Shown here: in pieces, positions 27,197-36,674 of the stretch | Numbering within the stretch: the stretch's first letter is position 1 | Layout of the letters: each line of letters begins with the position of its first letter | NCBI GenBank assembly: GCA_001600495.1 | Contig: BCKE01000006.1 | Location: 675,790-739,789 of the forward strand | Direction: 5' to 3' | Source: Pilasporangium apinafurcum | Taxonomy: Eukaryota > Oomycota > Peronosporomycetes > Pythiales > Pythiaceae | DNA: 64,000 nucleotides | Program-made: the position numbers and the translations under genes | Notes under the pieces: generated by a model | The model's database searches: none | The model's input: only the letters and a program-made list of their open reading frames with translations | Told to the model about the DNA's origin: nothing

Positions 27197-28541
27197 ATGG
27201 AAGTCAAAGCACCAGTTTCGTTGGACGCCGCCATGAAAGTGGCTTTCAATTTGGAAGGACGCGACAAACTCACCAAGGTGCGTCCATTATTGTTTTTGAT
27301 GGGAGATGTCCGCCAAGGATGACATTGACGCGAAACGGATGGATTGGTATTGTGTAGTTGATGCAATATGGTAGTCGCGCGTTGGCGTTCTATATCCTGT
27401 CCGCAGACCCGAAGAGCGACGTCGGCAAAAAGTAAGTACATCAGCTATAACCGTTTTGATGAGTGGTGGTTGGCAACACCGAAGCTAACAGTCATTTTCC
27501 GTCGTTCTACCCCTATGTACAGACTACACAATCTCTACAAGACCGCACAGACGTCGCGTAAGGCATTCCGCCTCGGTAAAAGTGTCACTTATTACAAGAA
27601 AATTACCGCGTTATTGGACAACAAGGTTGGCTTTCTTCATTTACGTGTGAAATAACTCGATTATGCAGCGATTGATAGACAAGACATTGTTGTGAATTAT
27701 TTCGTGTTTTAGTCCACGGATTCATATCTGAAATATTTGCAACTGGTGCAAAATGTGAACATGGTAAGCACCGCTTCTGCTACATACATGAAGAACTACT
27801 AGTGGAAATATTCATCCACCGTTTGCTTATTCATGCAGTTTGGTTTCTTCCTCTACGATAACATGGCGTTCATGGGCAAAGCCAAGGTGATTAATTTCAA
27901 TGCAGAGGAGGCATCCAAACGTGGTGGCGTCTTGTGGTTCATCGCCAATATTGCAGGTTTCATCGTCGCGATCAACAACCTCAACGCTGTAAGCAGATGA
28001 ATGAACGGCGTCATTGTCTGTCAATGGCCGTGACAACACACTTACTCATACTTTGCTTTTGTGGTTGGATAGGATATCGAAAAGGAAAAGTGCGTGCGTG
28101 ATATTCTTGGGTCTGAAGAAGTACGAGAGCCTTAAATATTCGTATCAAAGTTGCTACGCGATGCTCATTCGAATGACTTGATGCTAATGAATAGGATGAA
28201 ACGCGCATTCAGTCGCTGCAATCGCAGCTGGACGCACTCCAACATGGGCGTTTTAAGAAGTTCTTGGGCGTGGTTAAGGTAAGTTGATGTTGCTGCCCTC
28301 CTTTGTAATAAATAGGAGAAGAGTGTGTATCTGACCATTGTGATGGGTATAGGTCTTGTGTGATCTGATTGTTTCTTCGAACACGAGCGGCATTCGCTTG
28401 GCTGAACGCATCACCGGTAGCAAGTTGCATGACGGTATCATTGGATCCGTCGGCTCCGTGTCTGCGCTGATCGTGCTGTACAACACGTGGCCAATGGCCC
28501 CGAAGCCGAAGGCCATTACTGCCGATGCTGCAGGCAAGTAG
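27197..28541 (+). CDS. PEX11: Peroxin-11 (peroxisome proliferation/division)
   Basis: Eight exons: 27197-27277, 27358-27431, 27523-27625, 27713-27763, 27839-27988, 28073-28093, 28195-28278 and 28353-28541, giving 250 aa, typical for PEX11. Recognisable features are the N-terminal GRDKLTKLMQYGSRAL, which is the conserved PEX11 amphipathic-helix region. The middle has KAFRLGKSVTYYK and FLYDNMAFMGKAKVI. The C-terminus is hydrophobic with a short lysine-containing tail. PEX11 remodels and elongates the peroxisomal membrane before fission. Exon 6 is only 21 bases (DIEKEKC). The start is the Met of MEVKAPVSLD; an in-frame upstream Met adds 27 unconserved residues. The downstream neighbour is a dead Fanzor element. 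Confidence 0.92.
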
Positions 28542-28866
28542 ACTGATAAAATGGAGGGATTCGCTGCTTCTACTGGCAGTAAAATACCCAACCAATTGAA
28601 GAAGTGATGGCCATATGTGTGCATGCAAAGCTCACATGTGGCTGATAGGTTGTGGGATAATGTGTGTCAGAGTCAAAATCAATTTCCAAAGGCTCGTTAA
28701 GCTTTCTACTATCTCATACTCTTATTGCTGATGTTCATCGATTTCAGCAGGCTATCTGTTATTACGGTTGAACTCGTGTTTTTGAGGTTGAAGATTTCAA
28801 ACACCCAAGGGATCAAGCCCCTGGTTGTTGATGTTGACCCTTATATTGTCATATAGCACCAAGGTC

Positions 28867-30317
28867 ATGAAGCGCAAAGCCGAAGACTACAAGCTAGCTG
28901 CTGTCAGGCATTTCCTGAAGGTGTCTCATTCACGTGGAGCGACCTGTAGAGCCCTACATTGCTCTCGGAGGTCTCTGAGTCGGTGGATTGACAGATATCA
29001 GTAGACAGATCGGGTGCAGAGGCACAACAGATCTTCCGTCGAAAATAGAAATCTAACACAGGGATATAATCGGATGGAGTTCGGGAACAAGCCCCCGACC
29101 CCAACCTACCGTACTACAAAACGATCAAGACCAGTCTTGCCTCTGCTCTCAAGACTTCGGAGAAGCAGTCGGTGATCAGTCAGGCAGCGGCGACGGTCGA
29201 CCGCATCGTCATTCGATCGCTTCTGTTCCTCAGGCCGTACTTGATGCACCACAAGGATACACCGCCAGTTGTGAATGCCGAGCTGGTGGGCACGATGTTC
29301 AAGACGGTTTATCAGCGGAAGGCTAGAGGTAGACTACCTTCGGCCATCACCAAAGCCCTGCGGGACAAATTGGCTGCGTTCTACAAGCAGCACTCCGAGC
29401 TCCTGTTGCCGATAGGAGACGAGCCGCTATCCTACACTCACCTGAACACTGTCCTCGACTATGCTTCCGTGTAAGCGGTAACTGTCTTCGAGACCAACAT
29501 CAAGCAGCACTTCGTCGAGTATGTAGAGACATATATCAACACGGTGTAGCAGAAAGACTACCTAGTAGAACGCATCAAGGTTACTAAGAGAACCAAAAGG
29601 GAGCGCAAGGCTGCGATCAGGAAGCTATGCGTCACTCTCCGGCAGTTCAAGAACGACCTGTTGAACGTCGGCTCAGAGCCCTTTCAGTCGCACCCTCTTA
29701 CCACTCGTGGGTGAGGCAACAGAAGAGCCTAGTGCTACCTGCAAAGACCAGGTATGAGAAGGATCTGCTATATTACGACCTGCAATGCAAGTCACAGGAC
29801 TACTGGTCCGGGATGTTGAGGATCACCGAGGTGATCGAGCAGGCTGGTAAGATGATCCGTAATTGTTGTCCTCTGAGGCCCAGCGTCATTTCGAGACACA
29901 TCACACTGGACACGACCACCCTGGGAACAGAAGAAGCATCGCAAGTTCAAGGAGCCCAGCAAGGGAAAGGGATTCAGGACTCTGCTGAGGAAAGCCGGCT
30001 ACTCGGTGTACCTCGTGGATGAGTTCAACACTAGTTGTCAGTGCTCTCACTGCTTAGCCGAGGGTGCCAAATGCGAGAAGTTTCGTGTCAGGCTGGACTC
30101 TAACACCAAAAAGGCTGACGAAGACAGACAACTCCGACTTGTACATGGTATATTGCTGTACCAACAGTGTCATAGGCTGTGGAATCGAGATGTCAACTCT
30201 TCAATCAACATAGCTCGTTTCACAAGGCAGGCTCTGGAGAGAAGAGGGCGACCAGACTATCTAAGTCGTCAGACACGACTGTCACCGGCAGACAGTGCTA
30301 TTACGTCGACAGCATAG
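28867..30317 (+). pseudogene. Decayed Fanzor (eukaryotic TnpB-like RuvC nuclease) with N-terminal helix-turn-helix
   Basis: Pieces of one protein are spread over two frames. From 28867, MKRKAEDYKLAAVRHFLK...SRRSLSRWIDRYQ reads as a helix-turn-helix of the transposase type and then hits TAG. From 29172, a helical region resembles the Fanzor N-terminal part, with in-frame stops at 29472 and about 29547. Near 29700 the frame shifts into YHSWVRQQKSLVLPAKTRYEKDL and RNCCPLRPS, ending ITLDTTTL, which is characteristic Fanzor sequence. At about 29921 it jumps to the C-terminus: a Cys-pair zinc finger (CQCSHC), HGILLYQQC and the RuvC-III motif WNRDVNSSINIARF. The region that should hold the RuvC-I Asp and RuvC-II Glu is deleted at this jump. 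The copy is therefore inactive. Fanzors are RNA-guided DNA nucleases of eukaryotes and their viruses. The 325 bases between PEX11 and this feature show nothing clear. Confidence 0.85.
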
Positions 30318-30491
30318 AACCATAACACACTGGGCTGAGATGCTCGAATGTTGTTTTTTTTAGGACGCCCCTGGGCTTTTAGATCTTCAACGGTATGAAA
30401 GGGCGCGCCCTTGCATTGTTGATAAGAATCGTCGACGTTTCCTCTTGAAATGTGGACATAGAACATTTGAAGCTCGTGCATCTTACAAGGG

Positions 30492-33400
30492 ATGGTGGCA
30501 GTGTCGACAAAAGACGAGCCGAAAACACATTACGATCCTTCGGCGCCGGTGACGACCAGTACACAACAATCCAACGATTCAACAGTAGTTAACGGAAGTC
30601 TGGTGGATGATGCAACCATCGATGATAGTGGCGAAGAAGTGAAGGAAGCTGTCGCGGTCGGTACCGTTTCGCACGTGATTCGTCGCGCCTTCCATTCATT
30701 TTATGTACTTGAAAACGAAAAAGCAATTGTGGATACTGATGGAAATGAACGAGGGCATGAGTTGTCATCTCCAATAGCAGTACCAACGCCGGTGGCATCA
30801 CCTGCAGCTGATTTAGGAGATGGTACACCTCAACACGAAGAAGTTGAAGCGGCACAAATACCGGGAAAGAACCTTTATACCGTGCTTGGAGAAACCAGAA
30901 AGGAGTATATTCAAGAGGAATTGAAGGCAAGGAAAGCCAAGATGAGTGAGCTGCTTGCATTTCTTGAGCAACGCCATCAAGAGGCACGTGCTGCGGACGA
31001 CGCAATTGAAGAGGAACTTCGTCGAAAAGGATTGGTCGTGAAGGCACAGATTCCTATGGGACCATCGAGCTTACGACTGGATGAGAAAGAGATCATACAC
31101 GAATTTGGCGAGGAGATTTCGGCGAACTTGCTGCATCCGAGGCAACTGGTGCGCAAGTATGAGCAGCAACGACTAGAAAGAAGCGGAAATGGCCCAGAAT
31201 ATCAGGCGCGTCGCATCGCAGGGATGAATCCGGAAGCAATTGGGTATTTGGATACGACAGACTCATTTGATATTCGGAAAGAATCCACTCTCAGTCAGCA
31301 TCATTCCCTCATCCAGTCAGTGAAGACCATGCATACACTGGCAAAAACCAAAATGGAAGGTAAGTCGAGCATAATTGCTGGAAAGTCGCAGATTCCTATG
31401 GACGAAGAGTATACAAAAAGTGGCTTGATCGAGGCAAGCCGTCACGATGAAAGAGAAAAGAGCAAGTCAAAAATGATGGAGCCGGCTGAGAAGCGGAAGA
31501 ACATGGACATTCTGCTTCGTATGCAAACAAAACTCGATTATCTTCGTAATCCACGTTATGTAACAAAGGAACCTGAATTAGTTGACAAAGATAATCTGAC
31601 GGAAACGACAGAAATATGCTTTGCAGTAGCCCCAGATCCCATCGAATTTACCGACTACGACATCGGAGGCATTTACGAGCAAACCGTGTATGTGCGAAAT
31701 ACGAGTCGATTGAGTCGACGATTGCGAGTCCTGCCGCCAGCGACGTTTTACTTTTCAATCCACGAAATCGTCTTTCCAGATCCGAGTGGACTCATTGCAC
31801 CCGGAATGCATGTGCAAATCCGATTGCGATTTGCTCCTGACTCACGTGCGAATTACAAAGACAGTATGACAATTCAATATGAAAGTGCGAACGCTGGTCA
31901 AAATGCGCAATTTATAGTCCCATTGACTGCTCATCGACCTCCACCAGAGTTGTCCATCCCACTCTTGTTGAAAGCCCAGAACACTCTTGTGGGAGATCGA
32001 TCAACCACGCATATCCTATGTAAAAATACTGGAGCCAAAGGGCGATTTTGGTTCATAACTGAACAGGATTGGAATCGATACGAAGCAGACGCGAGTTTAC
32101 AAGGATCCAACGCTATCAGCTTGGTGTCGATGCTTCAACAATCTCAGTTAAAAGTTGGACCGTTCGCATTAGCACCAAATCAAATGGAACTTGATCGTGA
32201 TGAAAGTGTCATGCTTCAGCTTCACTATGTACCGTCATGTATTGGTGAACAACGTGAAAAATTTGTGATGGTGTGCGACAATTGCCTCGTTCGTGTCTTT
32301 CAATTGATTGGTCGCGGCTGTCAAGTAGAAATGAGTATCTCAGCTATCAACTCCAAACAGATCGATACAGACATCACAAACATGGGAACACTAGATGAGA
32401 TCTTCTTCGATTCCCTCGTCATTCATTCCCAAGCCCAGCAAAGTGTGATCTTATCGAATGATACACCGATTGATCTAAAGTTCGCGTGGAAAATAGGCTC
32501 AAGCTCCATTGAATCAGAAGTAGCTCCGTTTCGAATTCATCCTTCCAGTGGCGTTTTTCCGCAGAATTCTCGAATGGAATTTACATTATCGTTCTCTCCA
32601 AGTCTGGCTCGGGTATATACTACTAACGCGACACTTAGCATCGAAGACATCCCACAATGCAGCATGCCGGGCCCAAATCAGTTAAATTTACTGACGGATA
32701 TCTTTCGATCCATTACTGAGCACACTTTGTCTCCAATAGTCACGCTGGATGTAGTAGAGTGTTTGTCCATTCAGCTGAATGGTGTCGGTCGCCTAGGTAG
32801 TTTCAGTATTTCGCCATCAATATGCCGTTTTGAGCATCCTACACCAACTGAAAAACACGGGTATTATGATCGCAAACGGTATTGCGCACAAGTCGTATTG
32901 GCGACTGACAATCCCGTACCGGTTAGATTTCGCTGGAATACTTCAAGAATAAAGCACAGACATTTGGGTATACATTGGGACAGTAACTATCCATCATCTG
33001 ATACCTTTGATCTTGTTATCACACCATTAGAAGGAGAGTTGGCAGCGCGTTCCAAGTTATCTGTGGAGATTATGTTTGTACCTGCTTGCTCCGGAGCTTT
33101 TTCGATCAGTGTGCCGTGCGAAATTCCAACTGACGATACAACGGCCGAATCATCCGGTATAAATTTTGAGCGCTGGGTGCTTCTGGAAGGCATTGTGGAC
33201 AGCGGTCGGGTTGAAATTTTATCTCCTGAAGTCGACTTTGGTCTTGTATTAGCTGGTGGGAGTGCTGAAACCACGATTTCATTTCGAAATCCCTCCTCAG
33301 CAAGTGCTAACTGGAGGTTTCTACATACAGAAGCACAAAGTCTTGTTAACAGTGACAATGGAGCAACCCAGAACAACGCTAGCACCAAATCAATTCATCA

Positions 33401-36400
33401 TTCGTCAGGATCCCTTTTCAATCCCAAACAGTTACGTCGAGGCAGTTCTCATGATTCGATCTCGTCTCGACATTCAATCGCATCATCTTCATCTGGGAAT
33501 GACACTAGTCGAAGCAGTAATCTCCTCTTTACGTCAAGAGATATTTTACCCCGCGCGACCATCGCGTTCGTTCCCGACACAGGAACTCTTGCTCCCGGCG
33601 AAATGCAAACAATCAAGGCGATATGCTTTGCCGGTTCGCTTCCTGAACGATTCCGAGGAAGTTTTCGATGTCAATTAATGCCAGAGCGCGAATTTTCGGG
33701 TCGAGTGGTAACAATGTTCGCTTCAGTGAGTGCACGTGCAGAAATTCAGTCCCCAAACGTGTATTTGACACCATCAAAGCTTCAATTGGGGACCACATAC
33801 CTTGGCGTGAGTGTGCGGCGGAAACTTGAGTTAGTGAATGTCTCAAATCTGGAAGCAAATTTTAAGTTTGTGGAGCCTCAAGGCGCCTCAAAGGCTTATG
33901 AGATTGCATTTTCGATGAAGCATGGCACCATTCACTCCAAAGAAACTATCCCAATCGAGGTCATCTATACGCCACGACAGGCAGGAAAATTCACAGTACT
34001 ACTGGCATGTAACGTACGTGGCCTTGTCGCACCATTGGGCTTGGAAGTGACAACGAATCAGAAGGGACTTGTGGTATCCTACGAACTATTACCGCCTGTA
34101 GACGTCTCATCGACAGCGACTACTGATACTCACACGTTGAGGAACATTCCAAAGTCGCCCAAGGAGATTGCACTGGAACGAGGAATGTCAATCTCTGATT
34201 GCGATTTGGAGCCAGAGTCAAATCCCTTGAGCTCTTTACCAAAGTTGCTGTTTGGGGACGAAATTCCGCTTGGCCAACGGCGAATGATCCATCTTCTCAT
34301 CCGAAACTTTAGTGGTATCGAAGCAGAAATCAGCCTCGAGGCCAAGAAGTTTCCCGTTGCGCCGGTTCACGCCAAGAACGTGACTGAAGTATCGCTGACA
34401 AACGGTTCCAACGGCTCCTGTTCATCCAATGGAGCACCATCGGCAGGTAGCCGAAACAGTGCTTCTCAACGGAGCACGATGAGCAAGTTAAAGTCAATCG
34501 AGAGGCAGTCATTACAACAGTCATCCTCCTCGTCGTTCCGTTCGATAGGACGCAGAAAACCGTTGCTGAGCGACAAACATGAACATCACAAGCGTCTTCA
34601 ATCAGATCAAGGACGAGATTATATACGTCACCGTGACGAGGACGCTGAAGATCGTGAAGTTCTTAGTCATGATCATGGAATTGCCTTCCAACTACATCCA
34701 AGTCATCTGCGTATTGCTCCATGGGAGCAGGCTGTGGTGACTGCAACATGTTTCAACAATATGCCTGGCAGCTACTCTGACGATATTGTGAGTCGTGCGT
34801 CCGGGATTCCACCAGTCTTTCTACACACGAACGCGACGGTAGTCGGAACGCCTTTAACGCTCGACCGAAATTGCACCGGGTTATATTTTTTTGGCAAATC
34901 CAATGCGCACAATAGTGTTAAGCAACCGCAGCCGACACTTAACTTCGGCCAGGTCTGCGTCCGTTCTCCGTCAATCACGCGAAAGATTCGGGTCATCAAT
35001 CGCGGTCCAAAGCAAGCACGTCTTAAATGGAAGTTATATGAAAACGGTAAGGAGAATCAGCTCGTCACCCTCACCTTACGCGTCGATTTTGGCGCTAAGA
35101 TCCAGCTACGGATTGTACCCTGCGCGGATAACGAGATGGATTTCCCATTTGCGGTCTCCCCAGAGCAAACCCTGATTCCACCGTTTGGAACTGTACCTTT
35201 TCAGATCACATATTTCCCATCCAAAGATGCGCTAGAATCTCCGCGAGTTCTGATGTTAGCTGATGCACATTGGTATGATACAACCCATGACCATCAGACC
35301 GTGTCGTCTGGAGATACTTCAACCAATACAACTACCTCCATTGCTGGAACAGATCAAGAAGACGACCCTACGATTGATCTACGATGCGAGACGTCACCAC
35401 CAGCAGCTCGAAAGAAATCGATTAAAACAAGCGCTGCGGGGAAAGCATTCACTGCTGTTCGCATGGCGAACGCCCTGTCACGTCCAGTTTCACACGAGAA
35501 AGCCCCTCCTGCATCAGTGAGCTCGAAGTGTCTTCGTATCTTACTATCAGCAGACATTGTTGAACCCCAACTCTATGTAAACAAATCCATTTATTCACCT
35601 TCTGGCGGTCTTCAAAGTAGCCGAAGCAACCCAAATAGTGATGTTATGTCACCTTCTCTCCGTAATTTATACCACATCAAATTCCAGACGTGGTCGACGA
35701 TCGCTGAAAACCCAAGCGATGTCGCACATCCATTCCATCGGAAAGAGCTTTACTTGGTTAATCATTTAAGTACACGTTTCACATTTCGGCTTGAAAGCAC
35801 TGGCCCGTTTGCAGTCTTTCGTGCCGATTCGCTCGCTCCGAAGCACCCGTTATCATCGACCGATCTTCCCTCTGTTCATCGTCGTGCACAAGGCGAATCG
35901 TACATGTTCACGCTGCCACCAGAGATGTCAGTTCGTATAGACCTCCGATTTGATCCATCAAAGGCGAACTTTCAAGATCAGCAGACTTCAGCGACATCTA
36001 CAACCACCGCCTTAAGGTCAGGCTCTCAGCGCCTTCACACACAAATCGAAGGAGAACTACTTGTGAGATTCTCGAACCAGTCAGCGCAAACAATTCGACT
36101 CACAACGGAAATTCTGCGTCCGCTTCTCGTTGTCTCGCCGTCAGTATATTTCTTTGGGCATGTTCATTTGTCCAGTAAGCGCGCTGTTGTGCTTCGCCTC
36201 GCGAATCCAACGGTTGTGCCAGCAACTTTCTCAGTTCAACATATTCCAGTCCCCTTGCCTATATCCAAAGCTCAAAAGCAGGAATTTACACGTCATCACT
36301 CGCAATTCGTGGACGAACCCCAAGTGTTCGAGTTTTCCGCACTGACTGGCGTTGTGAATGGTCCTACGACCTCGTTACAGTCAGCGGGAGGAGCTTTGCC

Positions 36401-36674
36401 CAGAACCAATTCGACGCAAGACTTGGGCGCGAATCATCTGGTACTTGTTCCCATGGAAATCACTGTAGTCTTTCGACCAAAGGCTATCAAGAAGCGATAC
36501 AAGAGTCGATTCCGGTTTGTTATCGCACATGGGAATGATTTTGAGATCATTCTCGAGGGTGAAGGACATCTAGATGAGCAAGATGTGAAGGACCAAGATC
36601 GTGCCATGGTGCATACGAAAGCATTGACACATTCCACTCAAATATTCACAAAACCCACAATGACGAGAAAATGA
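30492..36674 (+). CDS. Giant ASH/MSP-domain protein, probably ciliary
   Basis: A single exon of 2060 aa. An acidic, partly coiled N-terminus (residues 1-370; EELKARKAKMSELLAFLEQR) precedes a series of immunoglobulin-like ASH/MSP domains. The first starts near residue 375 and has the family rhythm of PDPIEFTDYDIGG..YEQTVYVRNTS and RLRFAPDSRANYKDSMTIQ. Further copies include VEILSPEVDFGLVLAGGSAETTISFRNPS and PNVYLTPSKLQLGTTYLG. ASH domains (ASPM, SPD-2, hydin) occur in centrosomal and axonemal proteins. The motif near residue 350 (MQTKLDYLRNPRY) recalls DLEC1, which also has a helical N-terminus and ASH repeats, but I hold that as a guess. A protein of flagellated zoospores fits. It is unusual for its size in having no intron here. 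Ser-rich linkers split the domain blocks near residues 970-1000 and 1310-1380. Confidence 0.8.
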   Translation: MVAVSTKDEPKTHYDPSAPVTTSTQQSNDSTVVNGSLVDDATIDDSGEEVKEAVAVGTVSHVIRRAFHSFYVLENEKAIVDTDGNERGHELSSPIAVPTPVASPAADLGDGTPQHEEVEAAQIPGKNLYTVLGETRKEYIQEELKARKAKMSELLAFLEQRHQEARAADDAIEEELRRKGLVVKAQIPMGPSSLRLDEKEIIHEFGEEISANLLHPRQLVRKYEQQRLERSGNGPEYQARRIAGMNPEAIGYLDTTDSFDIRKESTLSQHHSLIQSVKTMHTLAKTKMEGKSSIIAGKSQIPMDEEYTKSGLIEASRHDEREKSKSKMMEPAEKRKNMDILLRMQTKLDYLRNPRYVTKEPELVDKDNLTETTEICFAVAPDPIEFTDYDIGGIYEQTVYVRNTSRLSRRLRVLPPATFYFSIHEIVFPDPSGLIAPGMHVQIRLRFAPDSRANYKDSMTIQYESANAGQNAQFIVPLTAHRPPPELSIPLLLKAQNTLVGDRSTTHILCKNTGAKGRFWFITEQDWNRYEADASLQGSNAISLVSMLQQSQLKVGPFALAPNQMELDRDESVMLQLHYVPSCIGEQREKFVMVCDNCLVRVFQLIGRGCQVEMSISAINSKQIDTDITNMGTLDEIFFDSLVIHSQAQQSVILSNDTPIDLKFAWKIGSSSIESEVAPFRIHPSSGVFPQNSRMEFTLSFSPSLARVYTTNATLSIEDIPQCSMPGPNQLNLLTDIFRSITEHTLSPIVTLDVVECLSIQLNGVGRLGSFSISPSICRFEHPTPTEKHGYYDRKRYCAQVVLATDNPVPVRFRWNTSRIKHRHLGIHWDSNYPSSDTFDLVITPLEGELAARSKLSVEIMFVPACSGAFSISVPCEIPTDDTTAESSGINFERWVLLEGIVDSGRVEILSPEVDFGLVLAGGSAETTISFRNPSSASANWRFLHTEAQSLVNSDNGATQNNASTKSIHHSSGSLFNPKQLRRGSSHDSISSRHSIASSSSGNDTSRSSNLLFTSRDILPRATIAFVPDTGTLAPGEMQTIKAICFAGSLPERFRGSFRCQLMPEREFSGRVVTMFASVSARAEIQSPNVYLTPSKLQLGTTYLGVSVRRKLELVNVSNLEANFKFVEPQGASKAYEIAFSMKHGTIHSKETIPIEVIYTPRQAGKFTVLLACNVRGLVAPLGLEVTTNQKGLVVSYELLPPVDVSSTATTDTHTLRNIPKSPKEIALERGMSISDCDLEPESNPLSSLPKLLFGDEIPLGQRRMIHLLIRNFSGIEAEISLEAKKFPVAPVHAKNVTEVSLTNGSNGSCSSNGAPSAGSRNSASQRSTMSKLKSIERQSLQQSSSSSFRSIGRRKPLLSDKHEHHKRLQSDQGRDYIRHRDEDAEDREVLSHDHGIAFQLHPSHLRIAPWEQAVVTATCFNNMPGSYSDDIVSRASGIPPVFLHTNATVVGTPLTLDRNCTGLYFFGKSNAHNSVKQPQPTLNFGQVCVRSPSITRKIRVINRGPKQARLKWKLYENGKENQLVTLTLRVDFGAKIQLRIVPCADNEMDFPFAVSPEQTLIPPFGTVPFQITYFPSKDALESPRVLMLADAHWYDTTHDHQTVSSGDTSTNTTTSIAGTDQEDDPTIDLRCETSPPAARKKSIKTSAAGKAFTAVRMANALSRPVSHEKAPPASVSSKCLRILLSADIVEPQLYVNKSIYSPSGGLQSSRSNPNSDVMSPSLRNLYHIKFQTWSTIAENPSDVAHPFHRKELYLVNHLSTRFTFRLESTGPFAVFRADSLAPKHPLSSTDLPSVHRRAQGESYMFTLPPEMSVRIDLRFDPSKANFQDQQTSATSTTTALRSGSQRLHTQIEGELLVRFSNQSAQTIRLTTEILRPLLVVSPSVYFFGHVHLSSKRAVVLRLANPTVVPATFSVQHIPVPLPISKAQKQEFTRHHSQFVDEPQVFEFSALTGVVNGPTTSLQSAGGALPRTNSTQDLGANHLVLVPMEITVVFRPKAIKKRYKSRFRFVIAHGNDFEIILEGEGHLDEQDVKDQDRAMVHTKALTHSTQIFTKPTMTRK

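Follow-up and report, generated by a model that had tools for sequence, protein, structure and literature searches.

How does a helix-turn-helix (HTH) of transposase type come to lie immediately ahead of a Fanzor in an oomycete nuclear genome, and do the two belong to one protein? The question is raised by a degenerate locus in the window, by which we mean the whole stretch of 64,000 nucleotides of Pilasporangium apinafurcum DNA that was analysed. We consider it very probable that the relic found there is what remains of a mariner-type Fanzor1 element of this oomycete, no longer functional and with an internal deletion. The sequence-only reading, made without database searches, had already described a dead Fanzor copy in a protist nuclear genome, and comparison with the relative P0001 bears this out, as two stops, a frameshift and an internal deletion are found. 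The blocks that it named are all present (an HTH at 28867-29004, RNCCPLRPS...ITLDTTTL, CQCSHC and WNRDVNSSINI); the span that it gave, 28867-30317, is too short, since by its ends the element is longer.

Identity and extent of the element

The whole transposon relic covers positions 28779-30399 (+ strand, as do all features of the window copy given here), which are equivalent to TTTA...TAAA of better-kept copies, and family copies from the same genome align with the window by BLAST from 28787 to about 30394-30401. Its inverted ends are degenerate, the family form being TTTACACCGTTGAAG.../...CTTCAACGGTGTAAA. The left one (28779-28811) is badly decayed, above all in its outermost 8 bases, and was positioned by alignment with better-kept copies, GTTGAAGATTT at 28787 being aligned with other copies; the right one (30368-30399) was placed by motif search and alignment of copies, the end being found with 3 mismatches at 30381-30399.

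Between these ends, the HTH (45 residues, 28867-29001), which we read as the N-terminal stump of a transposase, is translated as MKRKAEDYKLAAVRHFLKVSHSRGATCRALHCSRRSLSRWIDRYQ and followed by a stop at 29002-29004; Pfam recognises it at 28870-29001 as HTH_28 (32.3 bits, cut-off 25) and HTH_23 (31.4 bits, cut-off 24.6). A linking stretch (29005-29073), in one frame with both the HTH and the Fanzor start, leads to an ATG (29074-29076) that matches the start of Fanzor relatives (MEFG) and soon after which the frame slips. Using tblastn with P0001, Fanzor1 residues 5-207 were located at 29085-29693 (70%, with two stops within), residues 210-284 in another frame at 29699-29923 (72%, containing RNCCPLRPS...ITLDTTTL) and residues 523-653 at 29922-30314 (82%), up to a stop at 30315-30317; the zinc finger CQCSHC and the NRD motif in WNRDVNSSINI share this last frame. 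The joint at 29921-29925 marks a 713-bp deletion by which the window copy has lost residues 285-522, i.e. RuvC-I up to the GDW motif, including the RuvC-I aspartate that opens the pattern D-X(125,275)-[TS][TS]-XX-C4-RD. The deletion of RuvC proposed earlier is therefore real for this part and does not extend to all of RuvC, as the later conserved E (LVDEF) is kept past the deletion together with the zinc finger and the NRD motif.

As to its surroundings, a 2060-residue ORF with CFAP65-like domains (window 30492-36674) begins 93 bases beyond the relic, and the insertion thus sits immediately upstream of it. The window also contains a kinesin ORF (1518 residues) whose closest named relatives come from Globisporangium ultimum and Phytophthora, as befits an oomycete host, and the gene to the left of the relic reads like what we take to be a PEX11-type gene.

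The Fanzor1 reading frame and its past constraint

The Fanzor identity proposed from the sequence holds and can be narrowed to Fanzor1. Besides the agreement with P0001, a profile search of the C-terminus returned PF07282 at window 29928-30314 (32.2 bits, cut-off 26.3), where NRDVN is also located, and the family frame matches SpuFz1: the open C-terminal frame of copy L045 found SpuFz1 (PDB 8gkh) with an E-value of 9.3e-37 over 411 residues and, among solved structures up to E=1, only SpuFz1, PpFz1 and GtFz1, i.e. Fanzor1 and not Fanzor2 or TnpB. As L045 carries GIDPN...KTSCQC...NRDVN, the family possesses the RuvC-I aspartate pattern. The same copy carries STDGAACS, in a stretch deleted from the window copy, for the TDG motif of the WED domain, which excerpts of Yoon et al. 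(PMC10711439) present as a mark of Fanzor1. The open frame of copy L042 has 473 relatives, the best among the 120 listed being 68% identical over 86% of the query, and two named Coccomyxa elongata proteins are among those listed; in most of the 18 relatives examined, the protein starts with the MEFGD methionine or close to it.

The intact copies that the sequence-only reading expected elsewhere in the genome were not encountered among the at least 81 matches to P0001 in this assembly (68 of 388 candidates scored), and the five matches that cover at least 640 of the 653 residues have 3-5 stops each. In the full-length Fanzor copies (n=12), variants shared by at least two copies are distributed over the codon positions as 119/101/178 (P 1.5e-6, in a test that treats sites as independent), and this third-position excess shows that the Fanzor was formerly under constraint at the protein level. 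Shortened copies gave, by the same test, 49/43/62 over residues 1-160 (P 0.043) and 26/32/36 over residues 523-653 (P 0.18). Pairwise dN/dS came to 0.64 in the HTH, to 0.61 and 0.56 in two linker stretches and to 0.33-0.57 in eight Fanzor blocks; both in the HTH and over Fanzor residues 561-640, a pairwise count was flat across codon positions. The family's Fanzor was presumably once active in RNA-guided DNA cleavage; the window copy is dead.

Copies, inverted ends and insertion sites

By BLAST, the DNA of the relic has at least 79 matches elsewhere and at its own place in the genome (40 of the 67 candidates were scored), with 76-100% and mostly 84-90% identity, and the likeness is therefore not due to chance; among phage records, no DNA match to the element was found. 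For comparison of the copies, 30 sequences were aligned (L029-L058 minus L055, which overlaps L046, plus L061), 13 of which keep the full Fanzor length.

The ends of the better-kept copies are inverted repeats of the form TTTACACCGTTGAAGATTT. A search of the 36.5-Mb genome that allowed up to 3 mismatches located such ends at 111 places, and the reversed pattern, used as a control, at 17. The common insertion site looked for by the sequence-only reading may be TA, which is present at both ends in 12 of the 14 copies with both ends matching the 19-base motif (up to 2 mismatches), a count that is biased by the TA within the motif used for choosing them. Because the outer TT...AA is nearly as conserved as the TA, the TA duplication is putative; the inverted end may be longer, or the element may prefer TTTAAA as its target.

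At several places the same inverted ends are paired only 145-730 bp apart (G000:C21:100038-100765, C33:183178-183876, C41:4999-5725, C53:175131-175275 and others), and these pairs are probably minimal derivatives. One such short derivative, L061 (665 bp), retains the HTH and both ends.

Origin of the helix-turn-helix

The N-terminal block does have genomic relatives, the HTH being found at 28 places including the window. One locus, on contig C8, carries the parts of the element in order on one strand: the HTH (648726-648860, genome search), a second transposase-like segment (648990-649097), an insert of about 8.5 kb (649228-657746), a DDE_3 ORF (657792-658373, the only match in the genome), the Fanzor L048 (658684-660652, protein search) and the right inverted end (660719-660737, end-motif search). 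The DDE_3 ORF scores 40.1 bits with Pfam and E 4.1e-11 with NCBIfam IS630; a DDE transposase inside the element is seen at this locus only and is absent from the window copy. The second segment is also present in L047 (contig C98) and on C77, and this L047-type segment has no Pfam match; we take it, also by its place, to be a second HTH. The insert, which lies in the sole mariner-Fanzor copy with DDE_3 and has two 68% relatives on C27, has inverted ends identical over 590 bp (the right one being L048:1-590) and is hence recent.

At locus L009, elsewhere in the same genome, HTH_23 is followed by a second HTH and then by DDE_3. From the order of parts at these two loci, the HTH is best read as the N-terminal stump of the element's own Tc1/mariner (IS630-type) transposase, the rest of which would have been deleted; on C8 the order from HTH to DDE_3 is known from separate matches rather than from one continuous ORF, and evidence against the stump is that no left inverted end is among the C8 ends listed, which are part of the 111. 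An HTH acquired by the Fanzor as a domain was also considered and is less simple, given the order of parts on C8. Also against the stump, the best NCBIfam match of the HTH is IS3 (E 3.5e-4), with IS630 at only E 0.016, both far below cut-off. A protein search with the HTH part alone gave one candidate and no match, the best hit of a PDB sequence search had an E-value of 1.6, and the single-sequence fold model of 44 residues (two helices, pLDDT 75.7, pTM 0.33) has no fold match in the PDB. No viral relatives of the transposase ORF were confirmed.

The fusion suspected by the sequence-only reading stands in so far as the HTH lies upstream of the Fanzor and in the frame of its start; the HTH is most simply seen as the N-terminus of the mariner-type transposase. 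We regard as unlikely a true fusion, in which the DNA-binding domain of the transposase would function within a Fanzor of some 720 residues, either holding the nuclease at the element ends or bringing the Fanzor under the transposase start codon. In 15 of the 19 HTH-bearing copies, the starts of the HTH and the Fanzor are a multiple of three bases apart, no stop between the two is common to all 19, and L042, L049, L051 and L061 have no stop there at all, L042 being open for 444 residues from the HTH start; moreover, different joints (the main type, the L061 type and the L047 type, the last with one stop) all keep the frame. However, the frame is held from the HTH into the Fanzor body in only six of the 19 copies (L034, L039, L041, L042, L046 and L051), owing to a slip a few codons past the Fanzor start, and the window copy has both this slip and the stop after the HTH. 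Nine copies have no HTH and carry a different, partly truncated 5' segment instead, all 18 of the L042 relatives examined are without an HTH, and variants in the HTH show no third-position excess (10/13/10, P 0.7), in a test of little power, as 44 Fanzor codons used as a yardstick gave 8/13/14 (P 0.25).

A related and likewise improbable alternative is that deletions repeatedly and independently joined the transposase DNA-binding part in frame to the Fanzor and that these fusions were kept by selection; three independent in-frame joints would arise by chance about once in 27, a post hoc figure for which the joints are assumed to be independent. If it were true, an RNA-guided nuclease would also recognise the inverted ends of its own element, in elements without a transposase, and functional fusions would be a means, found in nature, of directing an RNA-guided nuclease to the ends of a transposon. 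In the literature searched, as judged by titles, no title on an HTH-Fanzor fusion protein was found. The terms HTH and helix-turn-helix are absent from the main texts of Saito et al. 2023 and Xu et al. 2024, HTH occurs in Yoon et al. (PMC10711439) only within Pfam and CDD names, and Bao and Jurka 2013 (PMC3627910) state that they could not determine a comparable HTH in Fanzor1.

Shared deletions and movement of the family

The 713-bp gap of the window copy is found in identical form in seven of the 30 aligned sequences, the window included, and also in the truncated L054; an 882-bp gap is common to seven of the 30, and L056 and L061 have separate gaps of their own. The flanks differ between copies, including those with the 713-bp gap, and one identical deletion at unrelated sites implies that the shortened form transposed. 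This means that the shortened form was itself amplified, presumably moved in trans. Recurrent 713-bp deletion at the 4-base overlap that BLAST gives for the window is a less likely alternative; the corresponding overlap at the L061 deletion is 7 bases, and the microhomology result depends on gap placement. Selection on the 882-bp-deleted class, some copies of which are open, was considered and set aside, as a rough hand estimate from stops looked neutral.

The 5' type and the deletion class combine freely, which suggests exchange between copies, chimeric assembly being a possible alternative. A division of the 5' types into clades was rejected: the trees are star-like, and the HTH/non-HTH labels require 8 changes in one region and 7 in another, where shuffled labels average 7.6 and 7.8. 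For L036 and L037, whose interiors are near-identical and whose ends differ, gene conversion was rejected too, since unknown bases occur at the same four positions in both; they are probably one repeat contig used twice, to be counted once.

We hold it highly likely that the stump and movement in trans together explain the family. A Tc1/mariner (IS630) cut-and-paste transposon with a Fanzor1 gene behind its transposase gene would have multiplied in the ancestors of this oomycete, and the transposase would then have been lost from most copies, some keeping its first HTH, left by deletion in frame with the Fanzor start codon, and others nothing of the 5' part but another short segment. Copies in which one and the same further deletion cuts through the Fanzor nuclease would still have multiplied, so that neither protein would be needed in cis, and movement would presumably be due to transposase made elsewhere and acting on the inverted ends. 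While active, the Fanzor would presumably have been guided to the vacated donor site by an RNA extending from the 3' end into the flanking DNA, and its cut there would favour restoration of the element.

That the Fanzor itself moves the element, or that an RNA-guided cut copies it by repair, without mariner transposase, would agree with the lack of a transposase in most copies and the single matching transposase ORF remaining in the genome, but copies without RuvC-I were still amplified, the inverted ends and the TA at the target are consistent with transposition by a DDE enzyme and a DDE_3 ORF is present in one copy, and we consider this very improbable. It is just as hard to believe that the family structure, shared deletions included, is a repeat-assembly artefact, in spite of the probable double use of one contig for L036 and L037 and runs of N in many other Fanzor loci, because the seven sequences with the 713-bp gap differ by 11-21% from the reference L034, have different flanks and, in six of the seven loci, contain no N (L033 has 1340).

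With the stump and movement in trans as the preferred explanation, a single genome shows an unusually readable path of mariner-Fanzor1 decay, in which the transposase was lost nearly everywhere, the Fanzor was constrained for a time and nuclease-deleted copies spread. This path separates what movement needs (the ends, and a transposase presumably acting in trans) from the Fanzor, and explains how an HTH can look fused to it.

The 3' end as a candidate guide RNA

A guide RNA overlapping the 3' flank had been proposed from the sequence; a plausible fold is found there, and covariation is not above shuffles. The 3' ends of six copies fold at z -1.3 to -3.0 and four inner stretches of L034 at z -0.5 to +1.5; from the folds of other copies, the candidate scaffold region of the window copy is 30270-30399. 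In the consensus fold, an internal TTACAC pairs with the terminal GTGTAA, a pairing similar in kind to that of the SfAV Fanzor1 scaffold as described in excerpts of Yoon et al. (PMC10711439). The alignment A2 comprises 24 sequences, from the 26 whose right end has up to 2 mismatches, leaving out L046 (odd right end) and L054 (truncated). Cells are paired at 87.7% against 35-44% in slid controls, the structure being taken from one of the rows. Covariation was 0.087 against 0.092 in shuffles, pair counts were not above shuffles, and the RNAalifold covariation term was only -0.35, with one of 27 pairs changed on both sides. Rfam gave no match in window 28000-31500. On these folding models, a guide RNA at the 3' end is possible.

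Related elements

In excerpts of Bao and Jurka 2013 (PMC3627910), Fanzor1 is described from Mariner elements that carry a transposase and from others that do not, among them six Fanzor1 families of Pythium ultimum; Fanzor1 in Pythium mariner elements is thus already published, and the window element is a further one. It resembles PUl-1 and PUl-4 of P. ultimum, as described there (PMC3627910), in its oomycete host, its Fanzor1 and its inverted ends with TA, and in belonging to a set in which some elements have a Mariner transposase and others Fanzor1 only; it differs, in a comparison by description only, in the copies with an HTH in frame with the Fanzor. With SPu-1/SpuFz1 of Spizellomyces punctatus it shares Fanzor1. 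SPu-1 is given in the same excerpts (PMC3627910) as an element of about 2.1 kb with 33-bp inverted ends and a putative TA duplication, and nine intact ORFs are reported for it, whereas none was found in the present assembly. The SfAV Fanzor1 transposon (Yoon et al. 2023, PMC10711439) is, according to excerpts of that paper, similarly non-autonomous, with inverted ends and Fanzor1 as the only encoded protein; its RNA was seen by sequencing, whereas here we have folds only.

The genome contains other Fanzor-like loci, and PF07282 has at least 150 matches in it (150 of 852 candidates scored). In L009 (G000:C135:12000-20189), an IS630-type transposase lies between two long open TnpB/Fanzor-like ORFs of 691 and 703 residues. 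Among solved structures, the 691-residue ORF is nearest to the mimivirus TnpB-like L79 (E 8e-17), and it looks as if a Fanzor2-type protein were accompanied here by a DDE transposase. L010:2957-4465 (- strand) is an open TnpB/Fanzor2-like frame of 503 residues, which matches HTH_OrfB_IS605 and PF07282 and is also nearest to mimivirus L79 (E 6.2e-25). A further Fanzor-like family (L011-L024, L027 and L028), which may have been recently active, is spread over many contigs in copies that are nearly identical and have numerous runs of N in the assembly.

Outside this genome, a viral IMG/VR contig of 4079 bases (L059) carries a relative of Fanzor1, with 46% identity over the best segment; the adjoining ORF is presumably GIY-YIG-like. 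This contig fits the viral Fanzor1 elements described in excerpts of Bao and Jurka (PMC3627910).
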